Source: a virus. Taken from it: DNA of 52,750 nucleotides. The notes under the pieces are model-generated. The model had not been told where the DNA came from. It did no database searches and saw only the letters and a list, made by a program, of their open reading frames with translations. Shown in pieces: positions 12,472 through 43,351 of this stretch. The DNA is taken from positions 1 to 52,750 of the IMG/VR virus record IMGVR_UViG_3300048446_000640. The stretch is one strand, 5' to 3'. The translations under genes were made by a program, and so were the position numbers. The number at the start of each line of letters is the position of its first letter. Positions within the stretch are counted from its first letter, which is position 1.

Positions 12472-15400
12472 ATGGCAAGTAGTATTGTATCTCAGTATCG
12501 AGACGTTCTTAGAAAGAAGGGAAAGATTGAAAAGGAGCAGTCCCTCTCAGATCAGGACTTAGCTCTCGAGATATATCAGTCACTTAGAAATAAAGGCTAT
12601 GATGTAAATGCCTTTGTTGAGAAGAGAGGTGACGAGGGATTCTTCCCTTTAATTAGGGAGTCATACGGAGAGGATAAGACTTTACTAGGTGGCACTATAG
12701 ACTCTATGCAGAAGAGGCTTGCCTCTAAGGCACAGGGCTTGAAGCAAGGTGGTGCTGTACTTGCAGGATCAGTGGGCATGGACGATACTGCCCGAGACTT
12801 AATGCGTTCTGCTAGGAGTAGCGGTAGGGAAGTAAGTCGAGAGAGTAAAGAGGTATTTGATGACTATACCATGATCGATGGCTTTGATGACTTTGCTCAG
12901 TATGTTGCTCATGGTGCTGCGAGTGGAGCAGTTGAGATACCTATATCAATAGTACAGGCATTCCTTGGTAGGGGTGTGGGTAAGCAGGTACAGAAGGGTA
13001 TTGAAAAGTCCGGCAAGCTAGAGGAGTTACAGAAGAAAGCCAAGAAGTACCTAGGTGATGACTATGGTGCAAATGTGGGTATGGGTGCTGGTGCATTAGG
13101 TGGTTCCGCAATAGAGAACACAGGTCATGTATATGGTGACCTATATGAATACACCAAGCTTGACCCTAAGGATGAGATGTATCTTAGTCCATCCGATGCT
13201 AGAGCAATGTCCATGCTTTCGGGTACAGCAGCAGGTATACTAGACTCTGCATTACCAGTTTATCTTACTTCAAGGCTTGCTAAGAAGATCGGTGTAAAGC
13301 CAGCTGAAGCTGAGGTTGCCAAGATGTTCAAGAGTTTGCCAGATGGTATGGCTCTATTAGCAAAGGGAGCAGGAGGAGAAGGTGTCACGGAAGCCTTGCA
13401 AGAAGCATTACAGATGCTCACTGTTAAGTACCACACTGAGGAAGAGTGGAGAGACGAAGACTGGCAAAGGATGATCAATGGTGGATTCCTTGGAGCTATA
13501 GGAGGTGGTACAGTCACAGGGGGAACAGCAGTCATAAGTGATATGCTCAGCCCCAAGCCAATAGGTGACGAGGAGATAGCCCAGGCTGAGGCAGACGATG
13601 CTCTAGACACAATCAAGGAAAGAGTAGAGATACGAAACCGAGGGGAAGCCAAAAGATTCGCAGAACTTAACCAAGCAGGACTAGGTGCAGTTGTCAGTCC
13701 TTCCGGTTCAGGACGTCTAGGACGGATAGTAGAGCTTAATGAAGAAGACAGCACTGCGGTAGTAGAGTTTGTTAATGGCGTCACGAAGAGCTACAAGCCA
13801 ACTGAGCTTAATATCAAGGAGGGCAAGCAGAAGATATTTAAGGAGGAAGACCTAGCCAAGTTGTCTAACGAGAAGCTAGAAGAGGTTAAGACCCTCATGC
13901 CTCGTTTGACCAAGAAGGTAATAGCCGAGCAGGAGAGAAGAAGGAACACCGAAGAGGATGAGAGTGGACTGAAGGTTCTGGATACCAAGCTCGAGGTAAA
14001 GATTGATAAGAACAATCAGCTTATTGTTTCTGATGTAATCAGTAAGGAAAGAATTTATTCAGCTACCCTAAGAGAGGAAGATAGCATTCTGTATCTTGAG
14101 AATGAAAATGCAGATAGCACAATAGATCAGAGGAGAACACAATCTTCGGAATTAGTACGCAAGAAGGCGAAAGCTAAGGCAAGGGAGATGTCTATGCCTA
14201 TAAGCATAGATGGTCAGGTTACATATCCTCTTACTACAGAAGATGTAGATCAGATTGATAACAAGGAAGAGTTGATTGTCGAGTTTGCAAAGCTACAGGC
14301 ACTTACTCGTTCTGCCACCAACCAAGCAGTCATTGATTCTACTACAGATGTATCGAACGCAATCATCAAGAGGCTGATTGATCAGCAGGTAATTTCCCTT
14401 AATAAAAACAATAAGCCTATCCTGGGTAAGCTTGAGCCAAAGAAGGGTGTAAGCTCCAAGCTCATTACTGAGAAGCCTAACATCGGTAGGCTTATAGCAG
14501 GGTCTATATTCTCCGAGCTTGAGGGGAGATTGGAGAACTACAATGAGACTGTCAGTTCAGCAAACCTCACAGATAAATTTATCCTTGGGGAGGCTAAAGA
14601 CTTAGCCGTTGAGCTAACTGAGGAGATAAAGGGAATCAATAAGAATGACCAACTCCGTATTGCTCAAGCTGCAACCCAGATATTTAGGGAACACCATCTC
14701 GACAAGGATGGCAACTGGGCAAAAGGTAAAACCAAGAAGGACATCCAAGATGATAAGGACTTGGAGCTTCTAGCTCAGCAGCAGAGAGAGCAAGATGCTA
14801 AGACTAGATTTGAAAGTCTTGACCTTAAGGCTAATGACTTTGTTCAGCTTAAGAAGGGTGGGGAACTAATAAAGATAACCGAGGTAGATGAGAAGAATCA
14901 CAAGGTAAAGCTAGAGGGTGGAGACACCTTCATGCTTGCTAACTCTATCCTCAGGAAAACAAATGAACGAGCAGTCAAGGTAGGAGAGGAACTAGTTACA
15001 GAGTTGTCCAACGGCTTGTATACCAAGAAGGTTAAGGTGTCAGGCAAGGACACGAACTATGAACACAAAGGCTCTAAGTCACTCAGTTTGTTTTTCAATG
15101 AAAATGGCAAGATAGCTAGAGTTAAGGATCAGAATGAGAACTCTTACTCTTTATCTGACGAGATCGATCTAGATACAGAGAACCTCACTGAGTATCTGGC
15201 AAGACTTACTCTTCCTGAGACACCGAGCCAAAGTAGTACTCCAGTAGTCAAGCCAGTTAAGCTTGCCGACAATATTTATCGTAAGGGTTCTGATGTCACT
15301 AGCTTTGAGTATGAGGTTAAAGGGAAGAAGAAGATTGGTAAGTTTGATACCACACCAATACTGCTTGATGGTAAGGTGCAAGGGGTGGAGTTTGATGGTG

Positions 15401-18400
15401 AGACTTATGACTTTGATGCACCCGTTGAGCCTAGCCAATGGGTAGAAGCCACAAGGAGTTTGTTAAAGAAGAAGAAGCTTTGGGGTAGATCAGAAAATAG
15501 GGTACAAACACCTAAGCGCCAATACATCAAACCCGACAATTCACTTGTATTTACTAGGAGGAATGATAAGCCATTCAACCCTGGGAAGGTAGAGTTGATT
15601 AGAGCCGAGGAGGGAGAGGATATATTTGATCTTTCCAAAAAGGTAAAGACTACTGAGAGTTCATCCACTAAGGCTGCTGTAGCATTACGCTACACTTATG
15701 ATGATGGTAAAGAATCTGTACTTGTAAGACGTCTTGGTAAATCACCCGGCAAGGATGGTAGATATGTTATCTATGACATGGCAGGCAAGTCGGGCATTGC
15801 TCCACTAGAGGGCAAGAAGCTTTCACTTACCATATCAACCGATGAGGATATGCTCATCGATGCTGAGGATGAAGAGTCCCAGGATCGCATCGAGGTCTTG
15901 GGGGTTATGCAGTTTGATTCCGAGGTAAAGGTAAATGCCAACTTTGATTCTGAGGATGCCTTCGAATCTGCCATGAATCCTTATTTAGATTCATCGCTAA
16001 TTAGAGCTAACCCAAAGGATGTCCTTGAGGATATTGACCAAAAGATAGCAGAGACAGAGAATCCTGAGGTTGAGCAGTCGCTTATTGAGCAGAAGAAAAG
16101 GATAGAGGTTGCGACCAAGGATGAGTCAGGAGAGTTCAATCCCCTTATCAGTGTATATAACAACAATATACCGGACTCAGAGGTAGATTCATTTAAGGGT
16201 GCAGTAAAGAAATTAGCTACCTCAATTGAAGATAAAGAGGTCAAGGAACTTGCTAACAAAATTGCCAAGTCTGATGACTTCCGAGTGTTCGACCTGCAGA
16301 AGTTCTTGGGTGCTATAGCTCCAAAGAAGAACTCATGGAAGTCTGGGATGCAACGGATGAACGAAGATGGTGGCTACCAAAACATAGAGGAAACCATCGA
16401 CCTTATGGCAAAGGAGTCAGCCATTGGTCAATATAAACCTAGAGTCAAAAAGGGCGAAGGGGATGTTATGAATCGTGTCCTCAAGATCACGGATGAAACT
16501 TCCGAGATTAAGGCAGATGGCAAGACAGAGGATATTACGATTGAGGGTGCTGACAACTACAGTGAAGATGCTGAAAGAGAAAATATAGGAGATTCTGAGA
16601 GTAAGCTTGATTTTGATGCTCAAGATCAAGAGGTAACAACTCCTGGCACAGAAAAAGATATTGCCGAATATGAGTCAGAAACCGATGTTGAGATTGAGAA
16701 GAATAAATTTAGCACAGAAGTCCGTACTGATGGGGATGTAAAGATTGACCAACAGTCCGTGGACATTGTTGAGGGTATCATAGCCGATGACTCTTTCCCT
16801 GATAAGCTAAGGAAGGATTTAGTCAACAAGGTAAAGCTACACAAGACAGGGGAGCTACCAGCCGATGCACTAGTATCAACTGCTATGTCGATGTATCAAA
16901 ATCATATCAATAGGCATCAGTCGGTTGGTGATATAGCATATACTCAGCAAGATCTTGAGGATCAAATAAAGCTAGAGCAATCTGAGCTTCGTAGTCCTAA
17001 AATCAATAAGCTTCCTATTCCTCAGGGTTTGGTAGAGGAGAATAATGCAGCAGTACAAAGGCATCTTGGGGGAGCCAAAGTAGATGGCGGGCCAATAAGA
17101 CTTTCAGCTTTTCTCTCAAAGCTACCTGACTTCCTCAAGGGTTCAACCGAGCTAGATGGAGTTTTGGTTGATATGGCTCAAACACTTTTATCACATCCAT
17201 TCACGAGAAGCCTTAAGGTTGAATTTACATCTTGGGATAACTTTAAGAACTTTGTTGAAAATGACGGAAGCAACGGAAAGCTAACTAGGGCTTTTGTTCG
17301 TGGGAACAATATTGTGATGGGGCCATTCTTTAAGCTCCCAGGTTCTGATCTTTCGGCAGATGCATCTCTGCAAATTACATTACTTGAAGAGGTTGCTCAC
17401 CGAGTCTTAGGGACTGCAATTGAGGCTGGCATACAAGCCAAGCGAAAAGGCGAGCTACCAAAGGGGGTGTCCAAGGTGATGTCAAGGCGTCAAGCCATCA
17501 AGATGTATGACGAGACGAAGGAACTCATGGATTGGCTAAGGACAGAGACTGACGGGAAGTACTACCATGGTCTTCTTAATATGCATGAGTTCTGGGCAAA
17601 CTTTGCGAGTAATCCAAGGTTTAGGAAATTCTTAAATCGTCCGATGCCACCAGCCATGAGGCGTAAGTTTAGCTCAAGGTTTGAGCGTGTCATCGACTGG
17701 GTGCTTGACTTGGTCAGTAAAATATTCGACGTCGATTTCACACCAAACAGAACTGCATCCGATATAATTAGAAAGAGATACCGTACGCTTTTGCGTACCT
17801 CTGATAAACTAGCCAAGGCAGACCTTGACATATACGCTAAAATACAACTCTACCATGAAAGCCAAGCAAGAAGATCCACTCAAATCCCAGTACCCCTCCC
17901 GCTGGAAATACGCACAGCAAGTGAAGGAACAACTGAAGAAGCAGCCGCGAGTATCGCAAGAGGAAGCCTACAAGCAGGCGGACGAGACCAGGCAGGGTTC
18001 CAAGTCGAAGAACAAGCGCTAAGAGCATGGGCTGGAGAGAATGACCTTATGCTCGATGCCGAGGAGTTTGACTCCAAGGTTTCAGACAAGGGTGGATTGG
18101 AGCATGAGATTTACTATGATGAAGACAAGGGGATATGGGTTAAGGCTAACGACCTATCCAATCACTCATCATACTTAGAGTATTTCAATAGGTTACAGAT
18201 AAGTAACTATATTTTCCCCGAGGCTGCTATGGAGCTACAAGGGTTTATCGAGCGAGATGGTATGCTCATGCCTGTTGTTCATCAAGTTCATGTTAAAGGG
18301 TCAAGACCAACAGAAGCCGAGATAAGAAAGTTCTTCGAGGAGAATGGATTCAAGAAGGTTGCGAGTCCAACTAGAGAGAATGACTATGAGAATGACCTGT

Positions 18401-21400
18401 TTGAAATTACAGATGCTCATGACGAGAATATAAAGAAGTTGCCTAATGGTCAGCTTGTAGTGATCGATGTTGTGCCATTCCATAAAGAGTCAATAAGTAA
18501 CACCGGAACATCGAGTAAGTTTAAGCAGTTCTTGAAAGCACCTAAGCTTAGCCGAGAAGAGATAGAGGCAATGGGTGGACGATTTGAGTCTGCTGATAGC
18601 ATCAATCAACAAGAGGAGCAGAGCGTTGCACAGGGTACACTCCGCGCGCATATGGCAGCACTTAAAGACTTGGGGAATGTAGCAGAAAGTGCTTTGAGTA
18701 GAGTAGGGGAAACAACATTAAGCTCTGAGCGGGTTAAAGACTTCACAACTTTTGATAGAGGTATCACTCCAGAGACTGTAGGCAAGGTACTCAAGGAGAA
18801 GCAACTGAGTATACAGGAGATGCAATCTCAGTTCGCTGAGGCAACCTCACCTGAAGTAAACATAGCCGATGCCAACAACATCAATGAGCTAGAAACAACT
18901 GCCAATAGAGACACAGGGGCAAGAAACCTACTCAACATGCTTACCAAAGCCAGGAGAGGGGCAGTAGATATACTCAACACTGCAAAGAAAGAGCAGACTA
19001 GGGCATCCGAGAAGATGACATACCTTAAGGCTGAGATGGACAGACTATCTAGCACTAAGACAATGTTCGATGCTGGTAAGACACAAGGAATATTTGAGAA
19101 ATTCATAAAGAGTGCTTTGTACAACAAGAATAGCAATGGTGAGTCATCCAAGGTAAACACCTTTGAGTTGACTCTCATGGCACAAGGCAAAGACATCAAG
19201 CCCACACCATTCGACAAGCTCAAAGAGGCAGAGATCGACCCGCAGAAGATTTACACCTTAATGGAAAGGCTCGCTGAGGGAGTAGAGGACATAAAGGTTA
19301 TTGAGCAACTTACTGCCGAAGAGATATTTGATACAATAGACATCAAGGCTAGTGACCTTGGGATAAAGGACTCCGACTTAGATCAGGCTGCTCAAATGGC
19401 AGTAGCTCTAATGCTAGGTAGTGACCAACGAAATGATGTTGCTCGTAGTTCATTCGCAGTAAGGCTAAGATTAGCCAAGGGACAGATCTCACATGAGACA
19501 CAGGATGCAGTCCAGCTGATAAAGGCAGCTGCTCGAGGGGAAGCTACCCGTGAGGTGAAGGATAAGTCCATGAAGATGATCCTTAACTCTGTCCGTAAAA
19601 TGTCAGAAGATTTAAAGGAGAACCAAGAAGACCTAGAGACTGCCAATGAAGAACTTCGAGTAGCTGAAGCATTTGTAGAGGCTTATGATGATCGCATAGC
19701 AGACCTTGATGAGTTCTTCCTAACATCTCAGCCCGTGGAGCTACGAGAAGGAGCAAACATCAAGACCCTTACCTTAGATAAGGATGGCAAGATGGTAGAG
19801 GATGACATTGTCTTCAGGCTCGGTGCTGGTGAGAGTTCACAAGAGTCTAAGTTCATGGCTGCTCGAGCATCCGAGCTAATTAAGATTATGGATACCGATG
19901 AGTACAAGGCTACTTATGCTGGTACTCCAATGGATAGGTATTTCAAACAATTAGCTAGGGAACTTAGAAAGCCCAACTTTGGTATCCAATATGTAACTGC
20001 TAATGTTGGATTCCTCCAAGCAGCTGCTCAATCCATCCAAGCAAGGTTCGCAAATCTTGGCCCAGCCGGAAAGGTGGTATCAAGTCTCATCAATGCATAC
20101 ACAAGAGACTATGCAGGGGAGAGTGCTAAAATATTTAATCAAGGACGAAGGGTTTCCAAGGCAATGACTAGGCTTCATTCCGAGATGAAGATCGATAAAG
20201 GAGAGAACCTCAATCAGTTCATAAAGACATTTGGTGACCGAGTGTTTGATTGGCTTAATGAGCGTCCCGACCTAGCAGGAGAAGAAGAGTTTGCTATTAA
20301 CAAGTTATGGGCAGACCTAAAGAAGGCTGACCCAACTAGGGAGTATACGGAAGATGGCAGAAAAGCCCTCCGTGCCTACCTTAAGCAGTGGAGCATCCAG
20401 AATGAAAACTTTCGTAAGCTTTATGAGAAGTATGACATTAAGATTGAGGATGAGGCAGTAGCTAGGGAGCAGATCGCAACAGGCGAATATGGAGATGTGC
20501 TTTTCCGTAGGTTTGTAGACCAAGGTATCGTCACTGCCCCTCGTAGGCTAAATAGGTCAAGGGTCACACAAGTTGCTCAGCTACTAGATGCAGGATTCCA
20601 GGATGACAACTATCGCATAACAGAAGATGATGAATCTTTCTTCTCTAAGGCTATGGTTAGTATAAAGGAGGCTGAGGCTAAGGGAGTAGATCTCGTTGAG
20701 AGCTTTAAGCAAATAATGGGTAAGTCTGTCAGTGATGAGTTAGCCGATATGTTCTTCCGACCTTTCTTTACGGGTAAGTCAGCACACAATACTCCATTCA
20801 CCCTAACAACCGAAACAGACCAAGGTAAGCAGACTCGGATCGTGCTGCCCGAAGAGATGCATAGGGCTTGGATTCAAGCGAAAGGGAATAATCCCGGGGT
20901 ACGTGTTGCAAATGCAATACAAAATGTTGTGGATCTACTGCCAGATGCAGATGAAGCAACCCTATCGAATTTACTAGGGCAGTTTAAGCATCGAGCAAAT
21001 GCTATCCTTCGAGCCGAGAATGATGCTCGTAATGAACAGACTGCACTCGGCAATGAGTCATCCCTTTCTCAGATGTTAAATGGTTCCGAGTTTCATGACT
21101 CCATACATGCTCGTAACTTTTACAATGTATTGCCAGGTGAGTTCTTCTCATACCAGACATACGATGAGACTTCTTCTGGGCAGTTACTCTCTAAGCTAAT
21201 GATGACTGCCCACTTTGGCAGGAAGGGCGAGAAGCTTACAGATAACTATCAAGCGATTATTGATGATTATGAGCCTTCATGGAACCTATATTCTGATTTA
21301 TCTGAATCCATAGGTCTTCCCATTAAAAAGAACTCCATGCCTAGTAAGGTAGCCTTCAAGGCTTATGCTACACGCAAGAAGAAGATGAAGGAGGAGCTTG

Positions 21401-23478
21401 CCCGCAGGGGATACCCTGCTAGTGACTTCGAAAAGCTCGAACTGAGGGCTGCCAGCTATGTGGAGGCACAGAAAGCAATGGCAGCTGCAAGTGCAGCACT
21501 AACTTCTAGATCTTCCTATAACGCTGACCTGAGTCTTGGGCTAGACGCTTTGCGCACGTTAGCGTTTGGGTTGGTTAACACGATCAAGGGTGCATGGACT
21601 GCAACAATGTCTATCCCTGATATCGTTAAAGTCCTTGGCTTGAATGCATCTGCCTTCAGAACACTCGGCGGTGCATACGGGAATCTTGCCCGTGAGGTAG
21701 CAGGTTCTTTCCTTGAGAGTTTTGGTGTAGAGATGGTGAGGCCAAATAAGTACAACGAGGAGCTTAGCGAGATTTACGGATACGAAGAAGGTATCATGAG
21801 TTTCTCTGAGAAAATGACAGAAATTGGCGTAGAGGGTACGGTGCAGGGAACCTTGCAAGCCAAGATTCGACAACTTCGCAACTTGGCTCAAGCTCTATCT
21901 ACTCTAGGGGCGAGCAGAAGAGTTAAGACCGGAAGAAACTTTGTTCCAGGCTCCCTACTTACTCCTATTACCGCACCATTCACTTACTTAGCCCAAGCAA
22001 CCAATAAGTCTATATCCCTAGCAATGGCTAACACCATAGATAGGTTTGTAGTCAAAACAGTTGAGGCTCTAGAAACCAAGGGTATCACTTTAGACAATAA
22101 CACCTTCGAGATAAAGCCTGAGGACATTGGCTACAAGGATGGGAAGCTAGATGCTTACATATTCGGCAACATGGATATGATTAATAAGCTAAACCAAAGG
22201 CTCACAGCCGAGGGGATGTCTTTTACCCAATTAGCACAAGACTTTAGAAGGAGATTGCAGGTAGACCCTAATGCCAAGGTTCTAACCAAGGATGCAGTAA
22301 GGGCTGCTTACAATATAGCAATGTCCGAGGTTACCTATGATACAATGTCGGGCAAAAGTGGACTCATGCAATCTGGAATTGGTCAGTGGGTGTCTCCACT
22401 TGTTGGATGGTCTGTATCTTCAGCGAATAAGGGCTTTGAACAGATGAGAAACAAAGAGGGTAGACTAGCTATGAGGGAAAGCATCAGATATATGCTTACC
22501 TCAACTGCTTGGCTTATGCCTGTAGGTATTGCATTTACCTTATTTATGGATTGGTGGGATGAGGAGCTTCTAGGTAAGCCTAGTTCCCTCAGAAAGGTTC
22601 CGCCTACAGCTGCGCTTCCTGGGGTAGGGACATTCCTAGCCATGGCAGATCCAAGGTTCGAAATGTCGGCAATGCTCGAGAGAAGTATGCGAGCAAATAA
22701 CATACTTGGTATTGTGCAGGAGTTTGCTACCCCGATGTTGATTGGTCAATTAGACCCCTCTTCATTAGGTGCTAAATTTGACCCGACTCGAAGGATTTTA
22801 GGTATTTCGACAGTAATGAATGCCTACGCTGTGGCAACTAACTACATCAATGCCCTAAGGACAAGTGAGGGCAAGCTAGAGGATGCTATACCAGACTATG
22901 CAACGGTAATCCGCCCTACGCTATACCTACTAGGACTAAACTCAGTAGTACAGAATGCTCAAATGCTTACCAACTTAACAGATGCCGAAGACTACGACCC
23001 AACAGGGTTCCTTTCTAACGAGAGGCAGGTTGCCGACATAACAGGAATGAGGAACTCACTAAGGGTATTTGCTAAGTCACTTGGAATGGAGATGCGCCGA
23101 GGTGGGCTTATGCAGTTCTCGACCACTGCCATGAGTAATGCCATAAGGAGAATGGAAAGGGCTGCATATGCTAATGATAAGGAATCCTTCAAGGAAGCCT
23201 ATCGGAAGGCAGTTATGCTATCTGAGAAGCCAGATCCTCGAAAGGACGTAATGGAGCAGTTTAAAAGAAGGAACATAAGGGCAAATATAACAAGATTTTC
23301 ACTTACAGATTCCGACATGGGGGCAATGCTATCAGTTATGGATAGAGATCAATCTACTGCCATTAAGAAAGCTATGCGTAACCATGATTTCTACCTAAGA
23401 TCAATTGGAGGGACTCCATCAGTGCCAAGAAGTAACATCAAGCACTACAAGGAGGAGCTTAGAAGACTAGCCCTATGA
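12472..23478 (+). CDS. Giant polyvalent virion-type protein with kinase-like domain (3668 aa)
   Basis: A multi-domain protein of the kind phages package and inject. Gly/Ala-rich hydrophobic segments lie at about residues 195-215, 245-270 and 340-356, with a GGEGVTEALQEA motif near 301-312 that I associate with large phage ejection proteins. Near 1634-1725 there is a zincin-like arrangement (LLEEVAHRVLG, then MHEFWANFASNP), but the first His of HExxH is replaced by Glu 1639. Residues about 1850-2005 match the kinase-like domain known from polyvalent proteins: Lys 1891, D1981-x-H-x-x-N1986 and D1999 fit ATP/Mg positions. The C-terminal third is helical with a hydrophobic stretch at about 3341-3365. 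Targets are unknown. It has its own upstream box and is followed by an ATGA overlap. Confidence 0.75.
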   Translation: MASSIVSQYRDVLRKKGKIEKEQSLSDQDLALEIYQSLRNKGYDVNAFVEKRGDEGFFPLIRESYGEDKTLLGGTIDSMQKRLASKAQGLKQGGAVLAGSVGMDDTARDLMRSARSSGREVSRESKEVFDDYTMIDGFDDFAQYVAHGAASGAVEIPISIVQAFLGRGVGKQVQKGIEKSGKLEELQKKAKKYLGDDYGANVGMGAGALGGSAIENTGHVYGDLYEYTKLDPKDEMYLSPSDARAMSMLSGTAAGILDSALPVYLTSRLAKKIGVKPAEAEVAKMFKSLPDGMALLAKGAGGEGVTEALQEALQMLTVKYHTEEEWRDEDWQRMINGGFLGAIGGGTVTGGTAVISDMLSPKPIGDEEIAQAEADDALDTIKERVEIRNRGEAKRFAELNQAGLGAVVSPSGSGRLGRIVELNEEDSTAVVEFVNGVTKSYKPTELNIKEGKQKIFKEEDLAKLSNEKLEEVKTLMPRLTKKVIAEQERRRNTEEDESGLKVLDTKLEVKIDKNNQLIVSDVISKERIYSATLREEDSILYLENENADSTIDQRRTQSSELVRKKAKAKAREMSMPISIDGQVTYPLTTEDVDQIDNKEELIVEFAKLQALTRSATNQAVIDSTTDVSNAIIKRLIDQQVISLNKNNKPILGKLEPKKGVSSKLITEKPNIGRLIAGSIFSELEGRLENYNETVSSANLTDKFILGEAKDLAVELTEEIKGINKNDQLRIAQAATQIFREHHLDKDGNWAKGKTKKDIQDDKDLELLAQQQREQDAKTRFESLDLKANDFVQLKKGGELIKITEVDEKNHKVKLEGGDTFMLANSILRKTNERAVKVGEELVTELSNGLYTKKVKVSGKDTNYEHKGSKSLSLFFNENGKIARVKDQNENSYSLSDEIDLDTENLTEYLARLTLPETPSQSSTPVVKPVKLADNIYRKGSDVTSFEYEVKGKKKIGKFDTTPILLDGKVQGVEFDGETYDFDAPVEPSQWVEATRSLLKKKKLWGRSENRVQTPKRQYIKPDNSLVFTRRNDKPFNPGKVELIRAEEGEDIFDLSKKVKTTESSSTKAAVALRYTYDDGKESVLVRRLGKSPGKDGRYVIYDMAGKSGIAPLEGKKLSLTISTDEDMLIDAEDEESQDRIEVLGVMQFDSEVKVNANFDSEDAFESAMNPYLDSSLIRANPKDVLEDIDQKIAETENPEVEQSLIEQKKRIEVATKDESGEFNPLISVYNNNIPDSEVDSFKGAVKKLATSIEDKEVKELANKIAKSDDFRVFDLQKFLGAIAPKKNSWKSGMQRMNEDGGYQNIEETIDLMAKESAIGQYKPRVKKGEGDVMNRVLKITDETSEIKADGKTEDITIEGADNYSEDAERENIGDSESKLDFDAQDQEVTTPGTEKDIAEYESETDVEIEKNKFSTEVRTDGDVKIDQQSVDIVEGIIADDSFPDKLRKDLVNKVKLHKTGELPADALVSTAMSMYQNHINRHQSVGDIAYTQQDLEDQIKLEQSELRSPKINKLPIPQGLVEENNAAVQRHLGGAKVDGGPIRLSAFLSKLPDFLKGSTELDGVLVDMAQTLLSHPFTRSLKVEFTSWDNFKNFVENDGSNGKLTRAFVRGNNIVMGPFFKLPGSDLSADASLQITLLEEVAHRVLGTAIEAGIQAKRKGELPKGVSKVMSRRQAIKMYDETKELMDWLRTETDGKYYHGLLNMHEFWANFASNPRFRKFLNRPMPPAMRRKFSSRFERVIDWVLDLVSKIFDVDFTPNRTASDIIRKRYRTLLRTSDKLAKADLDIYAKIQLYHESQARRSTQIPVPLPLEIRTASEGTTEEAAASIARGSLQAGGRDQAGFQVEEQALRAWAGENDLMLDAEEFDSKVSDKGGLEHEIYYDEDKGIWVKANDLSNHSSYLEYFNRLQISNYIFPEAAMELQGFIERDGMLMPVVHQVHVKGSRPTEAEIRKFFEENGFKKVASPTRENDYENDLFEITDAHDENIKKLPNGQLVVIDVVPFHKESISNTGTSSKFKQFLKAPKLSREEIEAMGGRFESADSINQQEEQSVAQGTLRAHMAALKDLGNVAESALSRVGETTLSSERVKDFTTFDRGITPETVGKVLKEKQLSIQEMQSQFAEATSPEVNIADANNINELETTANRDTGARNLLNMLTKARRGAVDILNTAKKEQTRASEKMTYLKAEMDRLSSTKTMFDAGKTQGIFEKFIKSALYNKNSNGESSKVNTFELTLMAQGKDIKPTPFDKLKEAEIDPQKIYTLMERLAEGVEDIKVIEQLTAEEIFDTIDIKASDLGIKDSDLDQAAQMAVALMLGSDQRNDVARSSFAVRLRLAKGQISHETQDAVQLIKAAARGEATREVKDKSMKMILNSVRKMSEDLKENQEDLETANEELRVAEAFVEAYDDRIADLDEFFLTSQPVELREGANIKTLTLDKDGKMVEDDIVFRLGAGESSQESKFMAARASELIKIMDTDEYKATYAGTPMDRYFKQLARELRKPNFGIQYVTANVGFLQAAAQSIQARFANLGPAGKVVSSLINAYTRDYAGESAKIFNQGRRVSKAMTRLHSEMKIDKGENLNQFIKTFGDRVFDWLNERPDLAGEEEFAINKLWADLKKADPTREYTEDGRKALRAYLKQWSIQNENFRKLYEKYDIKIEDEAVAREQIATGEYGDVLFRRFVDQGIVTAPRRLNRSRVTQVAQLLDAGFQDDNYRITEDDESFFSKAMVSIKEAEAKGVDLVESFKQIMGKSVSDELADMFFRPFFTGKSAHNTPFTLTTETDQGKQTRIVLPEEMHRAWIQAKGNNPGVRVANAIQNVVDLLPDADEATLSNLLGQFKHRANAILRAENDARNEQTALGNESSLSQMLNGSEFHDSIHARNFYNVLPGEFFSYQTYDETSSGQLLSKLMMTAHFGRKGEKLTDNYQAIIDDYEPSWNLYSDLSESIGLPIKKNSMPSKVAFKAYATRKKKMKEELARRGYPASDFEKLELRAASYVEAQKAMAAASAALTSRSSYNADLSLGLDALRTLAFGLVNTIKGAWTATMSIPDIVKVLGLNASAFRTLGGAYGNLAREVAGSFLESFGVEMVRPNKYNEELSEIYGYEEGIMSFSEKMTEIGVEGTVQGTLQAKIRQLRNLAQALSTLGASRRVKTGRNFVPGSLLTPITAPFTYLAQATNKSISLAMANTIDRFVVKTVEALETKGITLDNNTFEIKPEDIGYKDGKLDAYIFGNMDMINKLNQRLTAEGMSFTQLAQDFRRRLQVDPNAKVLTKDAVRAAYNIAMSEVTYDTMSGKSGLMQSGIGQWVSPLVGWSVSSANKGFEQMRNKEGRLAMRESIRYMLTSTAWLMPVGIAFTLFMDWWDEELLGKPSSLRKVPPTAALPGVGTFLAMADPRFEMSAMLERSMRANNILGIVQEFATPMLIGQLDPSSLGAKFDPTRRILGISTVMNAYAVATNYINALRTSEGKLEDAIPDYATVIRPTLYLLGLNSVVQNAQMLTNLTDAEDYDPTGFLSNERQVADITGMRNSLRVFAKSLGMEMRRGGLMQFSTTAMSNAIRRMERAAYANDKESFKEAYRKAVMLSEKPDPRKDVMEQFKRRNIRANITRFSLTDSDMGAMLSVMDRDQSTAIKKAMRNHDFYLRSIGGTPSVPRSNIKHYKEELRRLAL
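17855..18022 (+). CDS. Candidate overprinted small basic protein inside the giant gene (55 aa)
   Basis: In the +1 frame relative to the giant gene, ATG 17855 to TAA 18022 gives a Lys/Gln/Arg-rich helical peptide (starts MKAKQEDPLKSQYPSRWKYA) with the composition of a genuine phage protein. At the same place the main frame is a Ser/Ala/Gly/Pro-rich linker between the zincin-like region and the kinase-like domain, so a second coding frame would cost little. It could also be an ancestral gene trapped when two genes fused. No Shine-Dalgarno sequence is obvious, and expression is unproven. Confidence 0.35.
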   Translation: MKAKQEDPLKSQYPSRWKYAQQVKEQLKKQPRVSQEEAYKQADETRQGSKSKNKR

Positions 23479-25500: not shown

Positions 25501-26541
25501 TTACTCGTGTAGGTAGCCTTCGGTTGTCTTGGTATCAGAGTGACCAACAACCTTACCGATTTCCTCAAGGCTTAAGCCTGCCTTCTCAAGTCGAGTGACA
25601 AATGAATGCCGTAAGCAATGGAAGGATCGATTATATATATCTAGTCGCTCACATATTCTTTTAAAGTAAACACTAGGCTTTGACCTAGACTTTGGGTCAG
25701 CCATCATCTTGTGCCATTCAGGGAAGCAATAGGTTTTATCTTCAACATCTATCTCGCTAAGAACTTTTTGTACAATCCCTCCACCGAAGTATTCACTATT
25801 TAAATCAATCTGAACAAGCCTATCTCTCTTAAGAGTCCACACTACCATCTTGTTGCGATTCTTGATGCTTGCCCACTCAAGTGAGCAGATATCCCCAAGC
25901 CTAAGACCTGTCCAATAACTTATAGCAGTGGCTTGTTTAAAGAAGTATGGTGTGTGTTTGATGATCTTATCGACTTCATCCTTATGGAATATAGATCTTT
26001 CCTTTGGTGTCTTCTGCTCGTGCTTGAGCTTTGACTTGTCTATCTTAAGAATCATCAAGGGATTGGTGAGAACATACATCTTAATCTGAGCAAAGTTCCA
26101 TAGCTGACTAAGGCTAGACTTTCGTAATGCTCGCATACTCATGGCAGTCCCGTCATCCTTATTGAGGAAGTCATATAGATTCTTCTCGGTTACAGAAGCC
26201 ATAGGTTTATCAAGGCACTTGAAGTCCCTACCAAATTGCTCGAAGATTGCCATCATAGTATAGATGGAGTTCTCGGAGTGAGCAGATAATCTCATATGAA
26301 CCTCGTACTCCTGGACTACATCCCAATACTTCTTGGATGTTCCACCCACTATCTTCTGGAGTACATCCGTAGAGAGTACACCAAGTTTACCAGCTTCTTC
26401 TAGTTCTTCGATCTTGAGTTGCTTAACAAGTCGCTGAGCTTCTTTCCGATCCTTAGTCTTTAATGCAGTTGCTCTGGTATTACCAGAGGCATCCGTATAC
26501 TTGACCGAAAAGTTTCCACTATCTAGTTTTACTATCTTCAT
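25501..26541 (-). CDS. int: Tyrosine site-specific recombinase (integrase), complete
   Basis: Catalyses site-specific strand exchange, most likely phage integration and excision. An N-terminal SAM-like core-binding region at about 65-170 precedes the catalytic domain. All expected active-site residues are visible: Arg 214 in TGLRLGDI, Lys 238, the H308-x-x-R311 box in FHCLRHS, His 334 in VVGHSD and the nucleophile Tyr 343, only three residues from the C-terminus. The 346-aa length is typical. Start 26541 has an AGGAG Shine-Dalgarno sequence, unlike most other genes behind a GTAACCTA box. The gene is convergent, without any spacer, with the late small-gene cassette. No attP core or excisionase could be identified with confidence. 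Confidence 0.93.
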   Translation of the reverse strand: MKIVKLDSGNFSVKYTDASGNTRATALKTKDRKEAQRLVKQLKIEELEEAGKLGVLSTDVLQKIVGGTSKKYWDVVQEYEVHMRLSAHSENSIYTMMAIFEQFGRDFKCLDKPMASVTEKNLYDFLNKDDGTAMSMRALRKSSLSQLWNFAQIKMYVLTNPLMILKIDKSKLKHEQKTPKERSIFHKDEVDKIIKHTPYFFKQATAISYWTGLRLGDICSLEWASIKNRNKMVVWTLKRDRLVQIDLNSEYFGGGIVQKVLSEIDVEDKTYCFPEWHKMMADPKSRSKPSVYFKRICERLDIYNRSFHCLRHSFVTRLEKAGLSLEEIGKVVGHSDTKTTEGYLHE

Positions 26542-39488: not shown

Positions 39489-39518
39489 AATATTCCTTTG
39501 TTTGATTGGTTAAGTTGG

Positions 39519-39571
39519 TGAATTAAGAAAATGAAAAGCCCATGCCCGAGGACTAAGCCAAGGACATGGGC
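39519..39571 (-). terminator. Rho-independent terminator at the 3' end of the structured RNA region
   Basis: Arms GCCCATG (39538-39544) and CATGGGC (39565-39571), extended by CC/GG with a one-base bulge, followed on the minus strand by TTTTCATTTTC. It should end transcription coming from 41-39.6 kb, so the RNA gets a defined 3' end. Confidence 0.75.
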
Positions 39572-40613
39572 GAGTGACTCGTGATCATAGCGTCACCTTC
39601 TAGGACTGCCATACGATCATTACGTCGGTTGACGTACTAGAGCCGTACTACGGACGTACCATAGCCGACTCTAGTACTGGATTAATAATGGTGATGCAAC
39701 GGGTTGCGTTGCGACAAACATGAACATCCTCTAATAGATGAACATAACTTCCTTCAAGAGCCGAACCATACTCTCTAGGGTAGAAGTACCCTAAGCACTT
39801 ATTTACCGTTAACCCCCCTTTCCCAATAAAATTGGTACTCCCAGGGGCAAGTTCCATTAGTCCAAGCAGAGACTCGCTTGTTTGGTTTATCACTAATTGC
39901 CATCCTATGAACCATAGGCTACTTCTATTGACTCACGTCTTTCACTAACCCCTAAACCAATTAAGATCTAGGTTGTCACTATTAGCTTCCCACGTTGCCG
40001 TAACGTCGAAGTATTGGATATGCATTAGGTTTGAAATACTAATGTCGCCAAGCTACCGAATGCCCACCTTATTTTAATCTTATGTAGGGCTTGCTTTCCT
40101 ACTATAATGATGAGTATACACTAACGCACATACTGCGCTAATCGGATCTTTACGCTATGATTTTGATGCTTCCCATGCTTGAGAGTATAGAGCTTACATA
40201 AAGGATCGGACTCAATGTAAGATATAAGCTTGTCACGCAAACTATGACCACAAAAGGCTATTAACCCATAGCTACCGAATCGGTAGGGAAAAGTTAAAAG
40301 TACAAACCAATATTTTAAGTCAATCCTTTCGGCTCAGTATCCCATAGACGGTGATCAAACCGTACGGTAGGATCTGAAACCTTTTACCCATTGACACTTG
40401 CAAGCGTAGACCCGCTAAGGATAAAGGAATTGAAAGACTGAAAAAATGGCAACCGCAACTTTTTCCGCTAAACTGTCAAAGAACTGAGGACTCCAACGCC
40501 TTGCACCGCAAGACTACGATTCAATCGAATCATCCGAGGGCTTCCCCATACCCACCGCAAGGGTGGGTTTCATCGACTAGCCAAGTCGAATCGTCAGTGG
40601 GGAGCGAAACCCC
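39536..40613 (-). ncRNA. Large structured non-coding RNA candidate (about 1.05 kb)
   Basis: No convincing gene occupies this stretch. On the minus strand it is packed with perfect short hairpins, for example at 40599-40613, 40550-40568, 40518-40531, 40272-40286, 39992-40006, 39904-39918, 39863-39880, 39823-39835, 39696-39712, 39634-39677 (9 bp) and 39622-39635, and an 8-bp long-range pair (39882-39889 with 39953-39960) encloses one of them like a junction. A terminator defines the 3' end. A GCAA-tetraloop hairpin straddles the stop codon of the gene just upstream. Size and phage setting recall the giant phage-encoded RNAs GOLLD and ROOL, but I cannot show homology. The 5' end is unknown; it may be processed from the transcript of the 138-aa gene. 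Confidence 0.6.
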
Positions 40614-41030
40614 TTAGCTTGCGCTAAGGGCTTTCTTTTGCTCAGGGGTAAGGACTGACATAATTCTTGCGATCTGTTCCGCTTGGGTATCGATCACCGC
40701 TTGCTTGGTTACCTTTGGCTTTTGTACCTTTAGCGTGAGCATGTTGCTTGTCTCGCTTATCGAATCGCAAACGCCATCCTCTAGGGCTTTATTAAGCGCT
40801 TCCCTTGCAATCACGTTTCGAAGATCTTTCTCGCCCGCTAATATCTGAGTGACTCGCGCTGTTAACTCTTTGCCTTTAAGAGCAGTTGTCTCTCTAAGCT
40901 TTTTTCTAATGGCGCTTGCTCCGTTGCCATGTTCGCCAAATTTAATTTCATTTCTAATTACTTTTCCGTTCTTGTTAAGGATAGGTTGAACGTTGCCTTG
41001 AGTTGATGTAAGTATGATTGAATTGCTCAT
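40614..41030 (-). CDS. Protein encoded directly upstream of the structured RNA (138 aa)
   Basis: A basic, mostly helical protein (GASAIRKKLRETTALKGKEL, then RVTQILAGEKDLRNVIAREA and a C-terminus PEQKKALSAS). There is no recognised motif. Its last codons and stop form one arm of an 8-bp hairpin with a GCAA loop (40611-40630) at the border to the RNA region. The two are probably on one transcript, so the protein may bind or act with the RNA; this is inference from position and charge. The codon use looks more GC-rich and less AT-biased than in neighbours. Confidence 0.6.
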   Translation of the reverse strand: MSNSIILTSTQGNVQPILNKNGKVIRNEIKFGEHGNGASAIRKKLRETTALKGKELTARVTQILAGEKDLRNVIAREALNKALEDGVCDSISETSNMLTLKVQKPKVTKQAVIDTQAEQIARIMSVLTPEQKKALSAS

Positions 41031-41142
41031 TTGATTTTTGATTGAATGATATTTGATTGATGGCTTGCCAAAGCCGATGTGATGGCAAACTATTTTATGC
41101 CACAGCTACCCATTGCAAACCAACGACTTAGGGAAATAGTGT

Positions 41143-41164
41143 TACCTAATGGGCATTAGGTTAC
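41143..41164 (-). promoter_or_regulatory. GTAACCTA box, palindromic variant, upstream of the RNA operon
   Basis: GTAACCTA, then a 10-bp inverted repeat with one mismatch (ATTAGGTTAC against GTTACCTAAT, 4-base loop), so the second half is GGTAAC rather than TNAC. It lies 113 bases upstream of ATG 41030 and is the only copy far from its gene. Probable control site of the 138-aa gene and structured RNA. Confidence 0.45.
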
Positions 41165-41193: not shown

Positions 41194-41263
41194 GCATTCA
41201 TATACATTATATGCACCTTTTCTGAACTTTCCTCATTCTAGAACTAATTGGGGCGTTCAACAT

Positions 41264-41299
41264 TTGACCTTTAACTTGTAACCAAGTAATATTGGTAAC
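41264..41299 (+). promoter_or_regulatory. Sigma70-type promoter fused to a GTAACC box
   Basis: TTGACC (41264-41269), a 17-base spacer and TAATAT (41287-41292), with the box GTAACCAA-N10-TAAC at 41278-41299 overlaying spacer and -10. ATG 41300 starts eight bases after the -10 hexamer, so the predicted transcript is leaderless. This is the clearest evidence for how the boxes sit in promoters. Confidence 0.65.
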
Positions 41300-43351
41300 A
41301 TGACATCATATTATAATGATTATGTCTCGTCAGTCCCAGGGTACGGTGGTGGCTTAGACTCAATGTATGATAATACATTTCAGGATACTTTAATAACCGA
41401 TACTTCTAGTGCATTAGATACATTTACTCCTGCCCCGGTTATGTACAATAACACTAGGGATTGGATTAGTGATGTTCATGCAATAACTGGTGTAAATAAT
41501 CCTTTCCAAAATTCGGGATTCTATACTGACTATGGTAGTTTTGCGGATTACAGTAATGACTACGGAGATTTTGATACTACTGACTACGAGTTTGATTTTG
41601 GGGATGAGCCTTACGATGGATGGTCGGATGATAATTTAATAACTGGGGATTGGGATGACTTAACCTCAATGGCAAATAGCCTGAACCTTAGTGAGGGTGA
41701 TAATATTGTAGCTACATATAATGACCTTACTAGTTTGGATGGTGGTATTGAACTTCAGTCCTTAGAGAAGGCAGGTGTTGAGCTTTATGATGCTGATGGA
41801 AACATTAATGAGGATTTAGATACTAATACAGCAATTGCTAAGCTGGAAGGTGCTATATTGGACACTGAGAACGGGTTATCTCATGAGGAGAGGACTGAGA
41901 TGACCCAGACTCGTAATGAGTTAGTGAATGCTACAGAAGCTGGTCTTGATCAAATAACGATCAATGATATGGGTGAGCAGCAGGATATGATGGTTCATAC
42001 TAGGAACGATTATATGTATAAAAATCCCAAGGTTTCTACGGGAACTAAAGAGGGGATACCTTTGTTTGGTAGTTGGATTAAGAGGGGTCAGAATTACAAC
42101 AAAGATGGAGAAATTGGTGCTGGATATGTAAGTCCTGATGGTAAGTTTGTTATGTCTGATGCTATGGCAGCAGCTCAGCCAACTAGTAACTCTAAGCTTT
42201 TATATGGTGATGGTAATATAACAAACACTGCACCTAGACCTGGGCAGACAGTAGATTTGGCACAAGCTAGAAGACAAGTGGCAGATTCTATGGGTAAACC
42301 TAATCTTTTTGATCGAAGTGGTCAGATTGTGGAGAACAGGAAGGGTTTTAATGATTACTTCGATAGCTTTACAGACACACTAGGTAATGTTGCCACTACT
42401 GTTCTTAGCCCATTAAACTTTGTAACTGATACAGTAGGTGGTGGTATTCGGAAGTTTGGTAATGCATTGGGTGATAACTTTATTGGTACGGGAATCAGTA
42501 ACTTAGGTGGATTCATTGATGGTACTGGGGATTTTGTATTTAACACCGTACCTAACACCGTAATAAACTATCCAGACAATGCCGTGAATATGCTGACTGG
42601 AGCAGGCAGGGCATTGATGGGAACTGATATGGGTATCGGTCATCCTAGTAATTCGGATTTATTTATGGGTGGGCTAAAAGGATTATTTACAGATCCATTA
42701 GTTCTTGCCGGGGATGCGTTAAGTTTTCCTCTCAGTTTAGCAGTAGATGTATTAGGTGTTGATGAACTTTCCTTTGGATCGAAATCAGGCGGAGGCGGAG
42801 GCGGAGGCAAAAAGAAGCCTAAGAAGAAAGCCCGTAAGAATGTGCCAATAGTAAAAGGGACAGGCAAGATGAAGTCTAATGGATCTAGTACTGGTGGAAC
42901 TGGTTCTAGTGCAGTTTCTGCTGCAATGCCAGGTGGTGGGTCTGTTGTATCTGTTGGTGATGATTCTTATGATTTAAGTACTGCCGATGGTCAGCAGTCT
43001 TATGTTGATGAAACCGGAAGTTACGAAGCCCTTATGGAAGCTTTAAATAGAACGGGCGAAAGTTATCTGCTTGGTTCAGGTGTAGAAGGCAAAGATAAAC
43101 CTTTTAAGGCAGGGGCTGCGGATAAGAGTGGTATTAAAGATAATGCTATGGCAAACCAGGGTAATCCTAGTGCTACCAGAAGGATGGCTGCACCAAAAAA
43201 TCCCATAGATGTATATGCAGGGAAAGAAGACCCTGATGCTATGAATGCAGATTCAAAAGCAACAAAAGCAACAAGCCCAAGTGATATATTTGAGAATCCT
43301 GTTCAGACTGACATTGATGACATGGTTCCTAAGGATGAAGAGGATCAATGA
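41300..43351 (+). CDS. Structural-type protein with Gly7 and Lys-rich junction (683 aa)
   Basis: The N-terminus is rich in Asp, Tyr, Asn and Gly. Residues about 355-490 contain several Gly/Val/Leu-rich amphipathic stretches (FGNALGDNFIGTGISNLGGF, then LVLAGDALSFPLSLAVDVLG) that could contact membrane. These are followed near 497 by a run of seven Gly and then KKKPKKKARK, a strongly basic patch suited to binding nucleic acid. The C-terminus is low-complexity and acidic. The build is compatible with an internal or ejected virion protein away from the main structural block. Family not recognised. It is led by its own promoter-box and is the first of a + strand operon to 44.5 kb. Confidence 0.6.
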   Translation: MTSYYNDYVSSVPGYGGGLDSMYDNTFQDTLITDTSSALDTFTPAPVMYNNTRDWISDVHAITGVNNPFQNSGFYTDYGSFADYSNDYGDFDTTDYEFDFGDEPYDGWSDDNLITGDWDDLTSMANSLNLSEGDNIVATYNDLTSLDGGIELQSLEKAGVELYDADGNINEDLDTNTAIAKLEGAILDTENGLSHEERTEMTQTRNELVNATEAGLDQITINDMGEQQDMMVHTRNDYMYKNPKVSTGTKEGIPLFGSWIKRGQNYNKDGEIGAGYVSPDGKFVMSDAMAAAQPTSNSKLLYGDGNITNTAPRPGQTVDLAQARRQVADSMGKPNLFDRSGQIVENRKGFNDYFDSFTDTLGNVATTVLSPLNFVTDTVGGGIRKFGNALGDNFIGTGISNLGGFIDGTGDFVFNTVPNTVINYPDNAVNMLTGAGRALMGTDMGIGHPSNSDLFMGGLKGLFTDPLVLAGDALSFPLSLAVDVLGVDELSFGSKSGGGGGGGKKKPKKKARKNVPIVKGTGKMKSNGSSTGGTGSSAVSAAMPGGGSVVSVGDDSYDLSTADGQQSYVDETGSYEALMEALNRTGESYLLGSGVEGKDKPFKAGAADKSGIKDNAMANQGNPSATRRMAAPKNPIDVYAGKEDPDAMNADSKATKATSPSDIFENPVQTDIDDMVPKDEEDQ

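Follow-up and report, generated by a model that had tools for sequence, protein, structure and literature searches.

A conserved phage locus that combines an exchangeable gene, candidate border ribozymes and a large structured non-coding RNA

The locus described here bears on the standing question of why phages retain structured RNAs of kilobase length. The closest described systems are the GOLLD and ROOL RNAs, structured phage RNAs of 0.6–1 kb with a variable part beside a conserved part (PMC12286853). Nearby tRNA genes are frequent, not universal, in GOLLD and ROOL, and a homo-oligomeric RNA cage is their feature. The lytic phage ICP1 produces an abundant non-coding transcript of ~800 nt (PMC7567579). 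Clustered hammerhead ribozymes that flank prophage genes are thought to cut long transcripts (PMC3088659), and activity has been demonstrated for the P4-less minimal HDV-like (theta) ribozymes of gut phages, which are associated with the processing of neighbouring RNA (PMC10879173). Untranslated rRNA is shielded from Rho by boxA together with Nus factors (PMC4807359).

The present locus lies in the window, i.e. the entire 52,750-nt stretch of viral DNA that was analysed. Its RNA resembles GOLLD and ROOL in size, phage origin and the placement of a variable part beside a conserved one, and differs from them in that it yields no covariance-model match, adjoins an exchangeable open reading frame (ORF), carries a ribozyme candidate at its border and, in the window, does not lie beside a tRNA gene. 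As in ICP1, a large stretch is devoid of ORFs; unlike in ICP1, no similarity was found in the phage collection, and the transcript, measured in ICP1, is predicted here. The ribozyme candidates share their position at a gene border with the prophage hammerheads, except that the border is that of a long non-coding RNA and that three ribozyme families occupy the equivalent place in relatives. One of them, a P4-less double pseudoknot in relative G009, is similar to the gut-phage ribozymes, from which it differs in that it is not beside a tRNA and would release a long RNA.

Between positions 41231 and 39528, the window carries on the minus strand, to which all features of the locus belong, a promoter-like block, a leader, a 138-codon ORF, a gene-less stretch of 1.08 kb and an intrinsic terminator. 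The promoter-like block and the hairpin leader (41231–41109) precede the ORF. The block (GAAAGTTCAGAAAAGGTGCATATAAT, 41206–41231), which probably acts as a promoter, combines a 13-mer without variation with a −10-like TATAAT; it is unvarying or nearly so across nine phages, and matches of the pattern scan were mostly confined to this locus. The leader contains a conserved hairpin, GTAACCTAAT-GCCC-ATTAGGTAAC (41141–41164), in which L044 (CCTTAT/ATAAGG) and G004 (GTAACAC/GTGTTAC) carry paired changes and which is followed on its 3′ side by motif TAAGTCRTTGRT (41119–41130), which is conserved in the leader alignment. The leader also has a C-tract (41186–41170), which reads CCCCC...GGGGG and forms a hairpin in the window, G004 and L039, and reads CCCCC...CCCCC in other relatives, as though one half had been inverted. 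The small and rapidly changing ORF (40614–41030, 138 aa) has a homologue in G002/G003 (52% identical), and different ORFs occupy its position in G005, G009, G018 and G023. The window ORF found no match in Pfam or PHROGs, and the AlphaFold models of ORFs (pLDDT of 63 and 46) were too weak for a fold search. In L034, near 11600, the homologue of the window ORF seems frameshifted at its start, without an in-frame ATG, and telomere-like tandem repeats (CCTAACCTAACCTAACC) directly follow the ORF stop in L036 (after 4640; G002) and near the end of L034.

Besides G001, a second and identical assembly of the window phage, DNA searches and pattern scans retrieved related elements in G002/G003/G014, G005 and G006–G013. 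Locus ends were judged by record coordinates only, pattern-search loci being cut pieces; L044 and L114 are joined within one contig. R1, a covariance model built from the leader, was run on records with a homologous helicase and matched the leader in all 11 records outside its build set (G015–G024 and G004); as several of these are near-duplicates, the 11 represent about seven distinct lineages. E-values ranged from 2e-18 to 1e-5 in eight of these records and were weaker in G016 (2.6e-5), where the contig start cuts the leader, and in G004 (2.5e-4), where the contig end does so; the weakest match, G022 (0.0016), nonetheless shares 80% identity with the leader of G019 across 91 nt. Matches extended down to helicase identities of 37–43%. 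Weak ones in G025 and G026 are owed solely to the selection of these records by the promoter-like motif. With R1 matching 11 of 11 records, the leader is a constant feature of this group of uncultured phages. Cultured phages gave no blastn match, no tblastn match for the neighbouring gene and only remote matches (20–24%) for the helicase, and the hairpin pattern was absent from the bacterial genomes scanned.

Near-identical phages differ at this locus only in the ORFs beside the RNA, which have been swapped. G018 and G023 share 99% identity downstream and 92% in the leader, but their ORFs, which lie between the leader and a non-coding block common to both, are unrelated (271 and 262 aa versus 217, 108 and 112 aa). 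Similarly, G006 matches G010 at 94% identity across 377 nt, to just past the ORF start, and is unrelated to it thereafter, and G005 and G009 have leader (91%) and 3′ RNA (80%) in common, and not the ORF. Nine contigs (G004–G008, G010, G011, G013 and G016) end inside the element, a pattern to be expected if the locus varies within a population, although this list is partly biased, part of it having been found through the leader.

At the border between ORF and RNA, ribozyme candidates of three families were found: hammerhead-like in the window, twister in two lineages and minimal HDV-like in a fourth. The window candidate, a type I hammerhead (40541–40604), begins 10 nt 3′ of the ORF stop codon and consists of stem I (40603–40598/40548–40543), CTGACGA (40597–40591), stem II (40590–40572; a U·U at 10.1/11.1, then 6 bp), GAAA (40571–40568), stem III (40568–40550) and A40549 as H17, with the predicted cut at 40549|40548. 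CUGANGA...GAA, the A15.1–U16.1 pair, H17 and the three stems are thus all present (40603–40543), and position 10.1–11.1 next to the core, paired in canonical cases, is occupied by the U·U mispair; a published survey rejected hits mispaired there unless their activity had been measured (PMC3088659). A hammerhead descriptor matched the window as the sole site in 2.9 Mb of fetched, redundant DNA, nothing in 3.2 Mb of shuffled sequence, and three looser sites, none of equal quality, across 200 Mb of random sequence. The Rfam models left the window hammerhead unscored, even in a 241-base search. The transcript of the window phage may be cleaved here. A hairpin directly 3′ of the stop codon, GGGG-TTTCGCT-CCCC (40599–40613), and stem I are mutually exclusive; a ribosome at the stop codon would open the hairpin and may thereby couple cutting to translation.

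Among the relatives, twister-P1 models matched directly 5′ of the ORF in G004 (52 bits, E 2e-9) and directly 3′ of it in G005 (32.6 bits, E 7.4e-4) and in G010 (32.8 bits, E 1.4e-4), a near relative of G005, all below the Rfam gathering score of 67.2; P1 of the G005 twister is unpaired in the Rfam register, and G012 has only a twister-like stretch, unscored by Rfam. The HDV-like motif of G009 (25.6 bits, E 0.058, below Rfam gathering) lies about 30 nt 3′ of the ORF and has P1 (7 bp, GCCAAGC/GCUUGGU), P2 (6 bp, UGGAAA/UUUCCA), P3 (3 bp, GCC/GGC), junctions GGGUAAC and CUAA with a C in J4/2, and no P4. A loose HDV descriptor gave chance matches, and the conserved junctions occurred in the G009 match only. 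G002, G015, G017, G018, G019, G021 and G022 yielded no recognisable ribozyme.

Downstream of the hammerhead, a boxA-like site (GTTCTTTGACA, 40484–40474) is the only match of its pattern on either strand of the window. GTTCTTT stands in a comparable position, shortly past the ORF, in G005, G009 and G012, which brings such sites to four elements. By analogy with rRNA, a long non-coding RNA of a phage would have to be protected from Rho, and GTTCTTTGACA presumably acts as a boxA.

With moderate confidence, we interpret the locus as giving rise to one transcript from which ribozyme cleavage yields a message and a structured non-coding RNA of about 1 kb, a scheme that unites all observations. Transcription would proceed leftward through the leader, a small accessory ORF, the structured RNA and the intrinsic terminator. 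The self-cleaving ribozyme 10 nt past the stop codon would cut at 40549|40548 and part the message from the RNA, with twister or minimal HDV-like ribozymes assuming this role in relatives, and the boxA-like site would let RNA polymerase traverse the untranslated region without being stopped by Rho. The predicted mature RNA (~1.02 kb, 39530–40548, from ribozyme cut to terminator) would fold around a covarying 3′ core and work as an RNA rather than as a message; the host translation machinery, or another RNA, is only a guess at its target.

Alternatively, the RNA could stay on the ORF message as a long structured untranslated region that stabilises or regulates it, and an active ribozyme would then be a device for decay or tuning. 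The constant adjacency of the element to an ORF, the lack of a clear SD before that ORF and the imperfect window hammerhead are in keeping with this scheme, which we nevertheless regard as unlikely because the non-coding stretch precedes the ORF, between it and the leader, in G004, G015, G017 and G021, because the 3′ RNA is unchanged under ORF exchange (G005 versus G009, G018 versus G023) and because a boxA-like site fits an untranslated transcript.

The sequence-only reading had described 39536–40613 as a hairpin-dense stretch without a convincing gene, closed by a terminator, and these claims were borne out. On the minus strand, 14 perfect non-overlapping Watson–Crick hairpins of at least 5 bp were counted, compared with 5.4 ± 1.8 in dinucleotide shuffles (maximum 10 of 100) and 6.9 ± 3.1 in the other 1-kb windows of the genome; hairpins of at least 6 bp numbered seven, versus 1.3 ± 1.1 (maximum 4). 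Strong perfect hairpins are thus 2.6 to 5 times commoner than in shuffles, and those of 4 bp (22 versus 18.7 ± 3.0 by chance) are not in excess. No frame is conserved on the minus strand between 40613 and 39530, most indels that separate the two closest relatives have lengths not divisible by three, and the substitutions are free of codon periodicity. The longest frame (81 aa, 39648–39893) was discarded as a gene, as it is not conserved and gave a lone 22-residue match in one relative. The terminator, GCCCATG...CATGGGCTTTTCATTTT (39571–39528), is conserved in position and ends the element in five of five members of the group. When folding was compared with shuffles in 200-nt windows, both ends of the stretch stood out, mainly on the minus strand, with z-values of −5.6/−4.2 (minus) versus −1.9/−2.1 (plus) at 39501–39800 and −4.5 versus −2.9 at 40501–40700, and the middle (39701–40300) folded no better than shuffles.

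The 3′ part contains a core (39774–39881) common to four phages (window, G005, G009 and G012) and composed of h1 (39880–39876/39867–39863), motif GGACTAATGGAACTTG, h2 (39848–39844/39816–39812), TAACGG and hairpin h3 (39794–39775). Since global alignment of the whole RNA was unreliable, only blocks anchored at GGA..RATGRAACTTG and YTAACGG in these four sequences were used. Therein, 95% of the cells of h1 and h2 are paired, and 7 of the 10 pairs of these helices show two-sided changes, versus 0–2 with the partners slid; covarying pairs among homologues, the check proposed for a structured RNA, are thus present in an alignment of four sequences. Alignment folding against column shuffles yielded z-values of −3.8 (sense) and −1.5 (antisense) for G005/G009, and −6.2 and −3.9 for G005/G009/G012. 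A core model (R2) matched exactly the four phages, and neither G002 nor more distant ones, whose non-coding stretches may accordingly be other RNAs; nothing of the core was detectable in distant phages, and G002 shares only the 3′ end with the core group. This end includes motif AGAGGATGTTCAT...TCGCAACGCAACCCGTTGC, a hairpin (39695–39732) kept in five of five group elements, G002 included. It is followed by a long hairpin, GTACTAGAG...CTCTAGTAC, with TACGTC repeats (39631–39680), which has analogous hairpins in relatives. Multiple copies of TACGT(C) occur at 39680–39620 and at the equivalent place in G002 (five copies), G005, G009 and G012, and are possibly protein-binding or kissing-loop sites.

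Conservation of the locus, its non-coding nature, covariation, cassette exchange and the twister matches at the border in relatives are shown directly; covariation, the better alignment folding in sense and changes that ignore codons support the RNA as a real one. These results also bear on the improbable case of a DNA-level element, such as a palindrome-rich replication origin or a packaging or recombination site: the locus is an exchange hot spot in which many contigs end, and perfect Watson–Crick hairpins are inherently equal on both strands, yet the folding signal and covariation favour a minus-strand RNA, and promoter block, boxA, ribozymes and terminator all lie on one strand. More improbable still is a decaying cassette, in which a hypervariable locus holds what is left of exchanged genes and its hairpins have no function; rapid divergence and a middle part structured no more than by chance would be explained, and neither the covarying core nor the order leader–ORF–ribozyme–boxA–core–terminator, kept in phages with unrelated ORFs, would be expected. 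The ribozyme-released RNA that we favour has against it that its middle folds like shuffles and that its core is found in four phages only.

Regarding known RNAs, the covariance models of GOLLD (RF02032) and ROOL (RF03087) matched none of 12 records at E ≤ 10, window included, control genomes likewise remaining without a ROOL match, and a cmscan with the whole Rfam library, group I/II introns, RNase P and tmRNA included, found nothing credible in the window, which points to a different RNA. That it belongs to GOLLD or ROOL, or is a distant relative, as had been suggested, is thus very improbable despite its length, its occurrence in a phage, the combination of a conserved 3′ with a variable 5′ part and the tRNA gene beside the G015 leader, given that the window has no tRNA, that sequence membership is refuted and that kinship could be revived only by a shared three-dimensional fold. 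Near the leader, tRNAs were found in G015/G024 only, as a tRNA-Thr(CGT) directly beside it (L161, 4413–4488). The proposed large structured minus-strand phage RNA finds support in its homologues, strand bias and 3′-core covariation, and the GOLLD/ROOL assignment does not stand; the earlier reading was also incomplete, as the conserved leader (41231–41109) and the hammerhead-like fold (40604–40541) had been overlooked, and with them the setting of the RNA in a conserved locus with an exchangeable ORF and a border ribozyme candidate.

A new RNA class is possible. We tentatively envisage it as a large RNA from a conserved exchange locus with a swappable protein gene, released by a ribozyme whose family (hammerhead, twister or HDV-like) is itself exchanged among related phages. 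An RNA that is kept while its neighbour gene is swapped, with varied ribozymes at the same border, would define the end of the RNA and demonstrate selection for its release, and the locus models can be used to find more such RNAs.

Elsewhere in the window, a promoter-like repeat, TTGACC-N17-TAATAT, lies just before structural genes, on the plus strand at 41264–41302 and as a similar copy at 176–214; the copy at 41264 points away from the RNA locus (divergent). Among the structural genes, a single gene of 3668 aa (12472–23478) probably encodes a giant virion protein. A tyrosine integrase (Pfam PF00589) is encoded at 25501–26541, so the window phage may be temperate.
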